DNA of 45,777 bases from Bacillota bacterium (GTDB taxonomy: Bacteria > Bacillota > UBA4882 > UBA8346): the NCBI GenBank assembly GCA_029776205.1, contig JAKOTQ010000058.1:1-45777 (forward strand), read 5' to 3'. The position numbers and the translations under genes are program-made. How positions within the stretch are numbered: the stretch's first letter is position 1; each line of letters starts with the position of its first letter. Positions 7,734 to 38,761 of the stretch are shown piece after piece. The notes under the pieces are model-generated. The model saw only the letters and a list, made by a program, of their open reading frames with translations, was not told the DNA's origin and ran no database searches.

Positions 7734-8459
7734 TCACTTGCCTGCTAAAATTTTCCGGACCCTCTCCAAATCCTCCGGAGTATCCACTCCAATGGTTTCT
7801 GCAGCCACTTCCACCACTTTAATCCGGTACCCATGGCCCAGCGCCCGGAGTTGTTCCAGAGATTCTGCCCTTTCCAAAGGCGTTTGAGGCAGCTCAATAT
7901 ATTTCAATAGAAAATCCCGGCGGTAACCGTATAAACCGATATGTTTATAGTACTGGGCATCTTCCCCGTTCCGCGGATAAGGAATGGGAGATCTGGAAAA
8001 ATAGAGCGCATTTCCGGATTCGTCAGTCACTACTTTCACCACGGACGGTTCATTGATTTGGGCAGGATCGGTCAGCCGGACTTTAGCGGTTGACATGGCT
8101 AACCCCGGATCATCCAGCAATGGCCGGACGATAGAATCGATCACTTCTCCCTGAATCAACGGCTCATCGCCCTGAATATTAATGATCACGTCGGCATCAT
8201 GGCGGCGGGCCACTTCCGCCAGGCGGTCGGTCCCCGTTGGATGACTAGCCGACGTCATCTCGACTTGCCCTCCGAAAGCCTTCACTGCATCGAAAATCCG
8301 TTGATCATCCGTCGCCACCAGCACATCCTGGATCAAATGCGCCGTCAATGCCCTTTCATACACCCATTGAATCATCGGCTTATGACCGATAGTAAGCAAT
8401 GGTTTTCCCGGCAACCTGGTCGACTGATAGCGAGCCGGAATAATGCCCAATACTTTCAT
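7734..8459 (-). CDS. kdsB: CMP-KDO synthetase (3-deoxy-manno-octulosonate cytidylyltransferase)
   Basis: Activates KDO with CTP to CMP-KDO, the donor used by WaaA. The 241-residue length is normal. The nucleotide-binding start IIPARYQSTRLPGKPL (residues 6-21) and the INIQGDEPLI motif with its metal-binding aspartate are clear. ATG at 8459 (MKVLGI) is preferred over a GTG three codons upstream because AGGTGA is then at a workable distance. It follows lpxK by 16 bases and precedes kdsA by 16 bases, within the outer-membrane operon. Identification is strong. Confidence 0.95.
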   Translation of the reverse strand: MKVLGIIPARYQSTRLPGKPLLTIGHKPMIQWVYERALTAHLIQDVLVATDDQRIFDAVKAFGGQVEMTSASHPTGTDRLAEVARRHDADVIINIQGDEPLIQGEVIDSIVRPLLDDPGLAMSTAKVRLTDPAQINEPSVVKVVTDESGNALYFSRSPIPYPRNGEDAQYYKHIGLYGYRRDFLLKYIELPQTPLERAESLEQLRALGHGYRIKVVEVAAETIGVDTPEDLERVRKILAGK

Positions 8460-8475
8460 TATCTTCACCTATCCT

Positions 8476-9570
8476 TTATAAAATCTTTTCAAGACCATCC
8501 ACACCCTGTGGGAATCGAAACTCCAAGGTCAAAATATAACAACCAATATTGGCCTCACGAAAAAGGTCTTTAAACCTGCCTAGCTTGACGCCGTCTTTGG
8601 CTGTCGTCACCAACAGCTGCAGATTGTGCTGATGTAATTGTTCGATCAACACTTGAATTTCTTCATCAGACCAAAAATGATGATCCGGGAACGTCTGATA
8701 GAAAGCAACCGATACCCCGGCCTCGGCGACCGCCCGCTTAAACTGTTCCGGATTGCCAATGGCTGTAACCACTGCTACGGGCTTCGCCTTCGTAAACGCA
8801 ATGGTTTCCCCGTCGGAAAATAGAGGAATAAACGTAGAGTTATCCGTCTCGGCCCGGATCACCGGCGCCTTGGAATTATAGCAGCAAATTTTGGTAATTA
8901 ACTGCCGATTGGATTCCTCCGTCACCTGGTTCCAACGGGTCAGAATTATCACATCCGCTCTCTTTAAGGCTGTCAACGGCTCCCGCAACAATCCCCGGGG
9001 AATCACATACCCATTGTCAAAGGGATTTAACGCATCAATCAATACGATATCTAAATCCCGCTCCAGTTTCCAATATTGAAACCCGTCATCCAGAAGGAAC
9101 AGATCAATGTCGGGATATTCTTCCAAAGCCCGGTAAGCCATGGCCACCCGGTCCCGTCCCACCACGATGGGAATCCCCGGAAGCAATTGGGCCATCAGAT
9201 ACGGTTCATCCCCGGTAAATTCCGGAGACAAACCGGAGAGTTCCCGGTCAGTAAAAATAATACCCTGCTCCTGCATACTGCCGCCATATCCCCGGGTCAA
9301 AATGGCCGGATGCTTCCCCTTTTCAGTTAAAATCCGGGCCAAGGCGACAGTAGTCGGCGTTTTCCCGGTACCTCCGGCGACAATATTTCCAATGCTGATC
9401 ACCGGTACCGGCAGATGGCTTTTCTTCGCCAGTAAACGATGTAAACCGGATAGAGCCCGATATACAAAGGTGAGAATGTACAAGAAAAACAAGACCGGAA
9501 CAACAGTCCATCCCTGCCGCTTGCCGGTCACGACCTCATACAAATACTCCTTTAACCCAGCCTGTTTCAT
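8476..9570 (-). CDS. lpxK: tetraacyldisaccharide 4'-kinase (lipid A kinase)
   Basis: Inner-membrane P-loop kinase that phosphorylates the 4' position of the lipid A disaccharide. The 364-residue protein begins with a membrane-associating hydrophobic helix (about residues 22-40), followed by a Walker A motif GGTGKTP (residues 66-72) and LDDGFQ in the core. It overlaps the end of waaA by 4 bases (ATGA), indicating translational coupling. With WaaA and the KDO genes it shows that this organism makes a KDO-lipid A outer membrane, which is unusual for Firmicutes outside the diderm lineages. Confidence 0.94.
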   Translation of the reverse strand: MKQAGLKEYLYEVVTGKRQGWTVVPVLFFLYILTFVYRALSGLHRLLAKKSHLPVPVISIGNIVAGGTGKTPTTVALARILTEKGKHPAILTRGYGGSMQEQGIIFTDRELSGLSPEFTGDEPYLMAQLLPGIPIVVGRDRVAMAYRALEEYPDIDLFLLDDGFQYWKLERDLDIVLIDALNPFDNGYVIPRGLLREPLTALKRADVIILTRWNQVTEESNRQLITKICCYNSKAPVIRAETDNSTFIPLFSDGETIAFTKAKPVAVVTAIGNPEQFKRAVAEAGVSVAFYQTFPDHHFWSDEEIQVLIEQLHQHNLQLLVTTAKDGVKLGRFKDLFREANIGCYILTLEFRFPQGVDGLEKIL

Positions 9571-10865
9571 GATTTTTTCACCAAATCAGCGATTAATGTT
9601 GCCGTCCTGGCTGCAGCCCCTTTATTGGAAAGAACAGCAGCACGGGCATTGTTTGCCCGTTTCCGGTACAAATTTCGATCCTGAGTCAATTCCCGAATCG
9701 TCCGGACCAGATCATCAGCATCCTGCACGGTAAACCCGGCATCCGCTTCTTCTAACAATTCCTTGCTGGGCCGGGACTTATGCATATAAGGCCCAAACAT
9801 GACCGGCTTAGCTTGAAATGCCGCTTCCAGCACATTATGGCCGCCGATATTCACCAAACTTCCGCCGACAAAAACCACATCAGCCACGGCATAGGCCAGA
9901 CCTAATTCGCCAAACGTATCCAACAGCAAAATTTTAACTCCGTCCTTAACCCCACTAGCTGTCTGGGAGCGGCGGACATAGGGCAATTGCTTGGCCTCCA
10001 ACAAAGCTATAATTTCCTCCACCCGCTCCGGGTGGCGCGGGGCCAAAATTAGGTAATACGGCTCCCTCTCAGTTAAGCGAAGATAGGCCTCGAGAATGAT
10101 TTCCTCTTCGCCCCGATGCGTACTGGCCGCCGTAAAAATGGGGATCTCTTTGGACCAACCATATTGCACCAGGAAAGCATCGAGCTGTTCCCGGGTAAAT
10201 TGTGGATAATCCTGATCGAATTTGATATTTCCAGTCACGACGATCCGATCCAAGGGCGCACCTAAATGCCCGATCCGGTTGGCGCTTTCCGCCGACTGCA
10301 TCGCAAATAGATCAAAATGACTGAAAACATCCTTTAGAAACGAACGAATCCGCGAATATCCCTTGAAGGAATGATCGCTGATCATCCCGTTAACCATGGC
10401 CATTTTACTCCCGGATAATTTGGCCTGACGAATCGCATTGGGCCAGATCTCCGTTTCAACCAAGATAAAAACAGCCGGACAGATCCTTTGAAAAAAACCT
10501 TTGATGAGCCAAGGCAGATCAAAGGGGAAATAAGTAATAGCGATACTCTCATCCAGAATTTTTTTAGCCATGGCCTGTCCGGTCGGCGTTGTTGTCGTTA
10601 GCAAAAAGCCATAATCGGGCAAAAGCTTCCGCAATTCATCGATTAATATTTTTGCAACGACAGTTTCCCCTACCGAAACAGCTTGAATCCAGATAACCGG
10701 TTTGCCTTTGAGTTGGGGCAGTTCTTCAGGTCCGGGCGGCCGAAAATAAGGTGCAATCGGCCGGTGTTGCAGCAAATTGCGGATTAACACGAAAATGATA
10801 CCGATCACCGAAATGAGGATAATCAGACAATTATATAGAAAATAACCCGGTTTTAACTTAGCCAT
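9567..10865 (-). CDS. waaA: KDO transferase (3-deoxy-D-manno-octulosonic acid transferase)
   Basis: Membrane-anchored GT-B glycosyltransferase adding one or more KDO residues to lipid IVA. The 432-residue protein has one N-terminal transmembrane helix (about 9-28), then the N-lobe motif AVSVGE with glutamate 67 in the position of the family's catalytic base, and TETEIWPN-type sequence (here VETEIWPN) further on. The C-lobe contains GGSLVNIGGHN and EAAFQAKP, the CMP-KDO-binding region. The first residue of the usual WIHAVS motif varies (WIQAVS). It overlaps the upstream DUF374 gene by 13 bases and lpxK by 4. Confidence 0.94.
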   Translation of the reverse strand: MAKLKPGYFLYNCLIILISVIGIIFVLIRNLLQHRPIAPYFRPPGPEELPQLKGKPVIWIQAVSVGETVVAKILIDELRKLLPDYGFLLTTTTPTGQAMAKKILDESIAITYFPFDLPWLIKGFFQRICPAVFILVETEIWPNAIRQAKLSGSKMAMVNGMISDHSFKGYSRIRSFLKDVFSHFDLFAMQSAESANRIGHLGAPLDRIVVTGNIKFDQDYPQFTREQLDAFLVQYGWSKEIPIFTAASTHRGEEEIILEAYLRLTEREPYYLILAPRHPERVEEIIALLEAKQLPYVRRSQTASGVKDGVKILLLDTFGELGLAYAVADVVFVGGSLVNIGGHNVLEAAFQAKPVMFGPYMHKSRPSKELLEEADAGFTVQDADDLVRTIRELTQDRNLYRKRANNARAAVLSNKGAAARTATLIADLVKKS

Positions 10866-11518
10866 TCCTTTAAAACCTCTTCCCCGCGGCGATTGGCTTC
10901 ATGGATGGCTTTTTGCAACCGTTCCTTCTCAAGTTCCAACCGGTCCTCCGTAAGCTCATCCTTAATAAAGATGGGTTCTCCAAAATAAACCACACATCGC
11001 GAAAACGGTTTGGGAATTACAAACAAATCCCAACTCTCCTTCGAAATCCACTTCCGGTCAAAGACAAAAGCCATCGGAATCAAGGGCGCACCGGTTTTCT
11101 CGGCAAGATACAGCCCGCCCGGCTCAACGTGATAAATCGGGCCCCGCGGCCCATCCGGCGTCAGCGCCACTCCGGCCCCCTGGCGCAGTGCCCTCAACAG
11201 CTCGATCAATCCCCGAACAGCACCCTTAGAGGATGAACCCCGGATCGTTTTCCATCCAAATCTTTCCATGATGCCGCTGGCTAGATCTCCATCCCGGCTG
11301 CGGCTCACCAAAATATAATATCCACGTTTCCGGAAGAAATAAAACCCCATCAATTGCTGTCCATGCCAGCAATTGATGATAAAGCCTTCTTTCCCGAGAA
11401 ACCGTTCCAACTGTTCCTGGCCAACGACCCGAAAACGCAGACTATGGCCTAATAAAGCCACCAGAAAATAGGCGATATTGATCTTGATCTTTTCAAGATA
11501 TGGTTTTCGCAAGAACAA
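10853..11518 (-). CDS. DUF374-type lysophospholipid acyltransferase-like protein
   Basis: Member of the DUF374 acyltransferase-like family often encoded beside waaA and lpxK in diderm bacteria; presumably it acylates lipid A or another envelope lipid, but the substrate is not established. Visible features are a hydrophobic N-terminus, NCWHGQQL, SRSRDGD, and TPDGPRGP followed by PGGLYLAEKTGAPLIP. The listed start is a TTG at 11518 with no ribosome site. A good AAAGGAAG site lies about 30 bases further upstream and points to an in-frame ATT or ATC codon around 11534-11540, so the true start may be non-canonical. First gene of the operon, overlapping waaA by 13 bases. Confidence 0.82.
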   Translation of the reverse strand: MFLRKPYLEKIKINIAYFLVALLGHSLRFRVVGQEQLERFLGKEGFIINCWHGQQLMGFYFFRKRGYYILVSRSRDGDLASGIMERFGWKTIRGSSSKGAVRGLIELLRALRQGAGVALTPDGPRGPIYHVEPGGLYLAEKTGAPLIPMAFVFDRKWISKESWDLFVIPKPFSRCVVYFGEPIFIKDELTEDRLELEKERLQKAIHEANRRGEEVLKEWLS

Positions 11519-37050: not shown

Positions 37051-37188
37051 GTTCAATCACCGCCACTTGTTTCAATCCTATTTACTTTCATGAGTCTAAC
37101 CTTTCCGAAAGCGAAACGCAAGATGGCAGTGGCTTTTTTACCATAAATTAAGATGTTCTTTCCTGCGTCTTCTATGATGTCCCTAAAA

Positions 37189-37422
37189 TTACTCCAAACT
37201 GTCCAAATCGATGGTTTCCATCAATTCTTTAAGTTTAATGAATTCTTCCTTACTCAACGTTACGCCTTTACCCATTTTTTCGTGCTCCGGGTCCCAGTCC
37301 CGGATATCAATTTTCGGTTTGCGACTGTTCCAACTGACCAAATTCACTTCTTTGGTCCAACCCCGATAGTCTTCCCCTAACACCCCGAAATGTTGAACGA
37401 TGGAAAACTTAATTTCTGCCAT
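37189..37422 (-). CDS. ydbC: YdbC-type PC4-like single-stranded DNA-binding protein
   Basis: A 77-residue protein of the bacterial YdbC family, structurally related to the eukaryotic transcription cofactor PC4, which binds single-stranded DNA. It shows the family's GWTKEVNLVSWNSR, PKIDIRDWDP and GKGVTLSKEEF segments, with two basic beta strands and a C-terminal helix. ATG at 37422 follows AAAGGAG. It lies 138 bases upstream of the kinase-like gene, and no terminator is visible between them. Confidence 0.88.
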   Translation of the reverse strand: MAEIKFSIVQHFGVLGEDYRGWTKEVNLVSWNSRKPKIDIRDWDPEHEKMGKGVTLSKEEFIKLKELMETIDLDSLE

Positions 37423-37501
37423 AGTTATTCTCCTTTCTTTCTAGAATTAGATTGCCCGCTTTCCGTCCAATCCTTGCACGAAATATACCAAAAGCCCTAG
37501 T

Positions 37502-37529
37502 ACATACAGCGTAGCCTATTCATACTTTA
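37502..37529 (+). promoter_or_regulatory. SigK-like promoter upstream of the first cysteine-rich peptide gene
   Basis: -35 AC (37502-37503), exactly 17 bases, then CATACTTTA (37521-37529), which matches the SigK -10 pattern CATANNNTA. About 40 bases before the ATG at 37576. The consensus is short, so chance is possible. Confidence 0.4.
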
Positions 37530-37575
37530 TATCAGGGTAATAACCCAAAACCAAATCCTAAGGAGGTTATCATTT

Positions 37576-37665
37576 ATGGGTAGAGGTTTTGATTTCTTTG
37601 GCGAGAACAGTTGTTTATGCCTGATTTTAATCCTCCTTTTCTTATGCAACTGCTGTGGCCGCTAA
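37576..37665 (+). CDS. tiny cysteine-rich hydrophobic peptide, copy 1
   Basis: A 29-residue ORF behind a strong AAGGAGG site (9-base spacing). It begins MGRGFDFFGE, then a hydrophobic segment from about 13 to 24 starting CLCLIL, and ends CNCCGR. Cysteines are at 13, 15, 24, 26 and 27. The segment is just long enough to be a single membrane helix. It is followed by a strong terminator and is repeated as a paralogue 230 bases downstream. I know of no function; tiny hydrophobic proteins such as YjcZ-type are found in spores of Firmicutes, but the sequence is not close to them. Its SigK-like promoter suggests late mother-cell expression. Confidence 0.72.
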   Translation: MGRGFDFFGENSCLCLILILLFLCNCCGR

Positions 37666-37757
37666 CACGCTAATAGCATAAAACAATGTGTTAAACCGGT
37701 TTAACTTCAGACAAACACTGCATATCCTCCCTTGGAAAATGAATGAACTTGATCTAT

Positions 37758-37785
37758 AAAAAGCGGGATATCCCGCTTTTTTTAT
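37758..37785 (+). terminator. terminator of peptide gene copy 1
   Basis: Perfect palindromic stem AAAAAGCGGGATATCCCGCTT (18-20 bp symmetrical core, given as AAGCGGG and CCCGCTT arms) followed by seven T residues. Confidence 0.88.
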
Positions 37786-37892
37786 TGATCAACTATAGGC
37801 TTTCGTCCTGAATATTTGTACCAAAGACCCAGTCCAAATGGATTTAAGACAACATAAGATGTACCAATCGAACTCCAAAGGAGGTAACTTTT

Positions 37893-37985
37893 ATGGGAAG
37901 AGGATTTGACGGTTTGTTTGATCAAAATTGTTTGTGCCTGATTTTATTACTCGCCATCCTTTGCTTCTGCTGTGGCGGCTTCTAA
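37893..37985 (+). CDS. tiny cysteine-rich hydrophobic peptide, copy 2
   Basis: A 30-residue paralogue of the ORF at 37576, behind AAAGGAGG. It shares the MGRGFD start, the CLCLIL segment beginning at residue 13 and the final C-CC-G pattern; all five cysteines (13, 15, 24, 26, 27) coincide. Residues 7-12 and 19-23 differ, as expected of a diverged rather than very recent duplication. GAATATT about 70 bases upstream resembles a SigE -35, without a convincing -10. A terminator follows. Both ORFs are too short for standard gene finders, but conserved spacing, ribosome sites and terminators support their being genes. Confidence 0.72.
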   Translation: MGRGFDGLFDQNCLCLILLLAILCFCCGGF

Positions 37986-38022
37986 ACATAAGTGACTTTC
38001 AGTGAAAAAACCTCATTAAAAT

Positions 38023-38047
38023 ACGCCGGATTACTCCGGCGTTTTAA
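38023..38047 (+). terminator. terminator of peptide gene copy 2
   Basis: 7-bp stem ACGCCGG/CCGGCGT with a 6-base loop, followed by TTTAAAAA on the plus strand. The preceding AAAAT also allows it to work for minus-strand transcripts of the histidine phosphatase gene. Confidence 0.75.
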
Positions 38048-38128
38048 AAATCCCATAAGCTATATATCGCGTTTTTCGACTACCTGCATCTCACCATAAA
38101 CAATTGAGGTTCGATAAGCAAATCAGCT

Positions 38129-38761
38129 TTATAGTTTTTCCCGATAATGGCTGATATCCCCGTGAAGCAAAATTTCCGGGCCAGCATCCGTCATCATAAT
38201 TTTGCACAAGCAAGCCGGATGAATATATGGCAGATCCCAAAGCCGATCCAGCGGCCGTTTTTCAAACCAGGCCATTAACAACTTGATGATCACCGAATGG
38301 GTCACGATCAAAATTTTCCGTCCCCGATTCTCACGGATGACCGTTTCCATTGCTCCAACCGCCCTGGCCGATGCTTCGCCGAAAGTTTCGCCGCCTGCAA
38401 TCGCAAAATGCTCCGGATCATTCCAGAAATTGAAGAACTGTTCCGGGTACGTCTTTTCCACTTCATCCTTGGACTTTCCTTCCCAAACTCCCAAATTCAT
38501 CTCCTTAAATGCCTCATGCTCTATAATGGGAATTTCTCGTGAACCGCGAATAATATCCGCTGTATGCCGGGCACGGGGGCTGGAACTACAGTAAATCACG
38601 TCGATCGACTCTCCAGCGAGAGCTTCTCCCAGCCATTCCGCCTGCTTAATGCCTAATGGAGTCAGCGGTGAGTCCTGATGCCCCTGCATCCTTCGGGCAA
38701 CATTCCACTCGGTTTGGCCATGACGGGCAAGAAAAATCGTGGTTTTTTCATCGGTCATCAT
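38129..38761 (-). CDS. histidine phosphatase family protein (phosphoglycerate mutase-like)
   Basis: A 210-residue member of the histidine phosphatase superfamily (GpmB/CobC/PhoE-type). The catalytic LARHGQTEWN motif at residues 11-20 contains the phosphorylated histidine; SSPRARHTA near 60 contains the second arginine; EMNLGVWEG near 88 carries the acid; and the second histidine is in VTHSVI near 155. The substrate cannot be assigned: cobC, phosphoglycerate mutase-like and broad-specificity phosphatases all look alike at this level and no cobalamin genes are nearby. Two adjacent ATG codons; weak GGGG ribosome site. Confidence 0.85.
   Translation of the reverse strand: MMTDEKTTIFLARHGQTEWNVARRMQGHQDSPLTPLGIKQAEWLGEALAGESIDVIYCSSSPRARHTADIIRGSREIPIIEHEAFKEMNLGVWEGKSKDEVEKTYPEQFFNFWNDPEHFAIAGGETFGEASARAVGAMETVIRENRGRKILIVTHSVIIKLLMAWFEKRPLDRLWDLPYIHPACLCKIMMTDAGPEILLHGDISHYREKL

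Follow-up and report, generated by a model that had tools for sequence, protein, structure and literature searches.

Two tandem genes for tiny, cysteine-rich peptides, which lie in the 45,777-nucleotide stretch of DNA analysed here (hereafter the window), are real genes under purifying selection, and the tiny hydrophobic Gly/Cys-rich peptides of spore-forming Firmicutes to which they belong are, as judged from sequence comparison, an undescribed family. A mother-cell (sigma-E/sigma-K-type) promoter class is enriched across this family and the peptides are probably expressed in sporulation. The reading that we consider likely, while leaving real room for doubt, is that they are mother-cell-expressed, membrane- or coat-associated peptides of the spore envelope, acting as a small anchor or filler tethered through cysteines.

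Copy 1 (37576..37665, plus strand) encodes the 29-residue peptide MGRGFDFFGENSCLCLILILLFLCNCCGR and copy 2 (37893..37985, plus strand) the 30-residue peptide MGRGFDGLFDQNCLCLILLLAILCFCCGGF. Re-reading of the sequence confirmed both open reading frames as the initial annotation had described them, including the residues MGRGFD, CLCLIL and C-x-CC-G common to both and the cysteines at positions 13, 15, 24, 26 and 27 in each, that is five cysteines within 15 residues; the copies are 62% identical. The pair occupies a gap of ~700 bases flanked on both sides by genes of the minus strand, one PC4-like (37189-37422) and one of the histidine-phosphatase family, convergent to the pair (38129-38761), and its neighbours are housekeeping genes only (PC4-like, shikimate-kinase-like, phosphatase). 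AlphaFold2 modelled copy 2, at low alignment depth, as one helix spanning residues 6-28 with a mean pLDDT of 78.

Comparison with the sister genome (G001), in which both copies are present in the same order, demonstrates the coding nature of the pair. Copy 1 carries 2 synonymous and no nonsynonymous changes and copy 2 carries 4 and 2, respectively, which amounts to 6 of ~37 synonymous against 2 of ~146 nonsynonymous sites and a dN/dS of ~0.1. Conservation in the sister extends to the promoter, leader, ribosome sites and terminator stems, while the remainder of the gap has diverged. A contig search with the four close alignment rows returned only contig JAKOSX010000102.1 of the sister MAG. In a genome of another genus (G002), an orthologue beginning MGRGFDLFGENNC (peptide MGRGFDLFGENNCVCIALLVLLLCLFCGGGSICR) is found at the syntenic site, adjoining the same ThiF-like, DUF5698/DUF2179-like and shikimate-kinase-like genes in the same orientation as in the window; these neighbours were recognised by the resemblance of their sequences to the window genes and not by profile search.

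The AC-17 promoter claimed for copy 1 proved exact, with AC at 37502-37503, a 17-nt spacer and CATACTTTA at 37521-37529 (promoter 37502..37529, plus strand), and AC-N17-CATACTTTA is retained in the sister. This mother-cell-sigma-type -10 is CATAnnnTA-like and lies 55 nt upstream of the ATG, which is a promoter distance. It is followed at the predicted transcript start by a stem-loop, GGGT-AATA-ACCC (37535..37546, plus strand), that is invariant in the sister and taken alone is not significant (p 0.27), and by a Shine-Dalgarno sequence, AAGGAGGT (37560..37567, plus strand), recognised by its sequence and also kept. Between copy 1 and its terminator lies a perfect 16-bp palindrome, GTTAAACCGGTTTAAC (37690..37705), invariant in the sister genome despite diverged surroundings; it was considered as a dispersed operator and set aside, with no other exact copy in G000 (the genome of the window), G001 or G002. 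The intrinsic terminator of copy 1 (37758..37785, plus strand) is strong, with a 10-bp stem at 37758-37781 followed by a T-run (z = -5.9), and its GC stem is identical in the sister.

Signals around copy 2 are less distinct. Its candidate -10, CATAAGATG (37853..37861, plus strand; CATAAGATA in the sister), has no clear -35, making the candidate promoter weaker than that of copy 1, and its Shine-Dalgarno sequence, AAAGGAGGT (37877..37885, plus strand), was read from the sequence and is kept in the sister. The hairpin after copy 2, ACGCCGGA-TTAC-TCCGGCGT (38023..38042), has an 8-bp GC-rich stem that is kept and a loop that is changed in the sister. It is followed by only a short T-run on the plus strand and is probably a bidirectional terminator common to copy 2 and the convergent phosphatase gene, since the terminator scan assigned it to the latter.

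Whole-genome profile searches showed that each of the 10 genomes of the same bacterial family encodes relatives, as does one further genome of the same class (G012), and tandem arrays of two to five copies are frequent. Relatives are sparse in the wider phylum (28/398 sampled genomes including the class, some of them probably chance matches), and the first-round phylum matches L009, L010 and L011 were judged to be chance. Members measure ~28-45 residues and follow a common plan, namely a Gly-rich polar head, often with GG or NN in front of the 14-16 hydrophobic residues that follow, and a C-terminal end of C, CC or CCCC with G, R or F last. The hydrophobic run is constant among the relatives compared, whereas the cysteine pattern is poorly conserved: cysteine at all five positions was found in this genus only, with C15 and C26 varying elsewhere. 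The conserved five-cysteine peptides of the initial annotation are in this respect a conserved family whose exact five-cysteine pattern is genus-specific. The window pair and 25 relatives gave no convincing match in Pfam, NCBIfam, PHROGs or PDB; the matches of the pair or relatives to orthoreovirus p10, TatA, SNARE and an unnamed phrog (at 0.003) were weak and chance-like. No description of the family was found in the open-access literature, and the annotation 'chorion class high-cysteine' gave no lead there.

Related arrays broaden the picture. In the genome of the window itself, another contig (G000:C73, L087/L100) encodes three tandem tiny peptides, MADAVKGLFDGFGNNGWLMFLIFVLLVIGCGGCWF and two neighbours, the array comprising the NNGWLMFLIFVLLVIGCGG type as well as a Trp/Ile-rich peptide devoid of cysteine. 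Two of the three genes were compared with the sister and show ~11 synonymous against 1-3 nonsynonymous changes each, indicating purifying selection here as well. This array has the same architecture and promoter type as the window pair, but it contains fewer or no cysteines and adjoins S8 subtilase genes and a gene of the CotJC-like Mn-catalase family, the latter ~2.4 kb away. Intermediates such as MADAKFDGIFGGNCLWIILLILLICCCCGGGFF (G009:C152) suggest, on sequence likeness, a common ancestry of the less Cys-rich arrays and the window pair, which is not provable because the sequences are so short. Arrays of this second type adjoin S8 subtilase genes in six genomes (G000, G003, G005, G006, G008 and G009; three confirmed by Pfam, the rest by sequence likeness). 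NlpC/P60 neighbours occur in four genomes, beside second-type arrays in G003, G005 and G017 and beside a window-type peptide in G002. In the last of these (G002:C70, L053 3752-4401), the gene immediately upstream of the peptide gene is a small NlpC/P60 gene whose promoter is sigma-K-like, and similar NlpC/P60 genes are seen near arrays in L090, L102 and L103.

The longest array, on G004:C394 (L054 1700-2950), has five genes for Cys-rich peptides in tandem, all of them with CATAnnnT[AG], and in four of the five a strong stem-loop stands just downstream of this motif, possibly as a stabiliser of the mRNA 5' end. Stem-loops at the 5' end occur in several relatives and reach p<=0.05 in only 8 of 26 genes, for which reason a 5' hairpin is suggestive as a family-wide feature.

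The promoter analysis covered a family set in whose selection a ribosome site and a Cys tail, but not the promoter, served as partial criteria. The motif CATAnnnT[AG] stands upstream of 29 of the 39 family genes, against a mean of 5.5 and a maximum of 10 in 100 dinucleotide shuffles, which correct for AT-richness (family upstream regions have 34% GC and controls 40%). At the level of independent loci, the motif precedes the first gene in 19/32, compared with 10/122 upstream regions of ordinary genes on the same contigs (p = 2.7e-9); the ten include two genes, one for an NlpC/P60 enzyme and one for a subtilase, that themselves lie beside peptide genes. Outside the class, the strict form AC-16/17-CATAnnnTA was found in 5/13 matches against 3/134; these matches had little part in defining the set and some may be chance peptides. 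Sigma-A-like promoters were not enriched upstream of the family genes. As matches to a consensus, these counts bear on expression indirectly. The AC -35 of copy 1, as far as its sequence can tell, favours sigma-K over sigma-E. The assignment to sigma-K in particular is unproven, since both factors share this -10 and the AC -35 is found in only part of the family; of the promoter described in the initial annotation as fitting SigK, the AC-17 form with its -10 stands.

Of the 29 genomes of the class, every one encodes Spo0A and all but two encode SpoIVA (27/29), the two exceptions being MAGs that are ~90% complete, and on this account the class can be regarded as consisting of sporulating lineages. 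Kdo and lipid A genes (KdsB-, LpxK- and KdtA-like by eye) at 7734-11518 of the window are consistent with a diderm spore-former. Since the whole class has Spo0A, presence and absence of the peptides cannot test their link to sporulation. The conserved, sporulation-linked family that was to be looked for as a check was recovered in part, as homologues in spore-forming and, by the gene content of the window, diderm relatives, its tie to sporulation coming from promoter enrichment. In a closely related family (f2), 16 genomes all contain SpoIVA and Spo0A and are without convincing members; by gene content this lineage sporulates without the peptides, which are therefore accessory and not core to sporulation.

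Taken together, a role in the spore envelope would proceed from the mother-cell promoters (sigma-E/sigma-K-type), which would drive each gene as a short mRNA of its own, equipped with a strong ribosome site and a terminator, so that abundant small mother-cell products would be made from short terminated transcripts. The C-terminal hydrophobic stretch of ~15 residues would insert into the mother-cell or outer-forespore membrane or pack into the coat, the MGRGFD-type polar head would stay free, and the terminal cysteine cluster would then tie the peptide by disulphide to itself or to coat proteins. Here we infer both the membrane or coat location and the disulphide cross-linking by the cysteine cluster. 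A run of this length is short for spanning a membrane completely, and relatives rich in Ile, Val and Trp may just as well be packed into the coat as strands. Some relatives have four or seven cysteines and one peptide of the C73 array, in the same genome, has none; because of this variation in number and position, the superfamily as a whole cannot have cross-linking as its function, and the cross-linking or metal chemistry that had been ascribed to five conserved cysteines is not established, the pattern being genus-specific. A wider proposal, possible though doubtful, is that of a fast-evolving superfamily of mother-cell Cys/Gly-tailed membrane peptides, some loci having their own subtilase and NlpC/P60, which, in the spores of diderm Firmicutes, would form a layer held together by disulphides on the coat or the outer forespore membrane.

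The peptides could instead be sporulation membrane localisers or small regulators, in which cysteines tune membrane insertion and form no cross-link. SpoVM and CmpA are peptides of ~26-37 residues made in the mother cell, and the size, single predicted helix and mother-cell-type promoter of the window peptides would fit such a role, as would a hydrophobic run that stays constant while the cysteine pattern does not. However, SpoVM is an amphipathic helix whereas the window peptides are Cys-tailed and their predicted helix is uniformly hydrophobic, no profile match was found, and two to five tandem copies that diverge rapidly are more in keeping with a structural component than with a regulator present as one copy; we regard this role as unlikely. 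Thiol or metal chemistry, with CxC...CxCC binding a metal or acting in the membrane as a buffer of redox state or metal, whether in the spore or in the cell, would account for the density of five cysteines in 15 residues and for the Mn-catalase-family (CotJC-like) gene near the related array of the same genome. Against it, the cysteine positions vary, one tandem relative has no cysteine at all, and no metal transporter or redox partner adjoins the window pair, which renders this explanation quite improbable.

Ibs/Ldr/TxpA-type loci also present tiny hydrophobic open reading frames in tandem with their own terminators, and the window pair might by that likeness be type I toxin-like peptides under antisense RNA control. 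We consider this very improbable: no sigma-A promoter-like site was seen on either strand at 37100-38200 (a weak test, by sigma-70 consensus only), no Rfam match was obtained, sporulation-type promoters are found family-wide, the Cys tail is untypical of toxins and the syntenic chromosomal place is kept. That these short Cys-rich peptides in tandem are precursors of a ribosomally made, modified product (bacteriocin/RiPP) is scarcely credible, as neither a leader-core division nor, near the window pair or the arrays, a modification enzyme or exporter was seen; promoter type, synteny and the absence of partner genes disfavour this and the toxin alike.

Returning to the preferred reading of a Cys-tethered spore-envelope peptide, the closest comparisons come from Bacillus. 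SscA of B. subtilis is a very small mother-cell spore coat assembly protein, which can be set beside the window peptides by description only as a very small mother-cell coat factor, and no cysteine cluster is known in it. The YjcZ family (TIGR01732, tiny_TM_bacill) is similar in being tiny and in joining a Gly-rich head to a hydrophobic helix at the C-terminus; its members are not known to have a Cys-rich C-terminal end. In B. subtilis, yjcZ is a sigma-K-dependent member of the sigma-K regulon (PMC517825), the family has several paralogues per genome (PMC8313275), and sORFdb places YjcZ among the frequent membrane-associated products of 50 residues or fewer (PMC11796252). The window family shows the Gly-rich head and single C-terminal hydrophobic segment in under ~50 residues, but neither the window peptides nor their relatives match TIGR01732 at E<=10, and the profile is found in 0/29 genomes of the class, with B. 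subtilis as positive control. Membership in YjcZ being thereby rejected, the peptides would work in the manner of YjcZ from outside that family, and the pair would represent a new, Cys-rich form of an established kind, the tiny mother-cell sporulation peptides. Gene finders may easily overlook peptides of about 30 residues, none of this family is contained in the profile libraries searched, and little has been charted of the spore coats of uncultured diderm Firmicutes; peptide architecture combined with a mother-cell promoter offers a list of candidate spore-envelope parts. The findings suggest that the tiny-hydrophobic-peptide strategy of Bacillus, as represented by YjcZ, has Cys-rich counterparts elsewhere.
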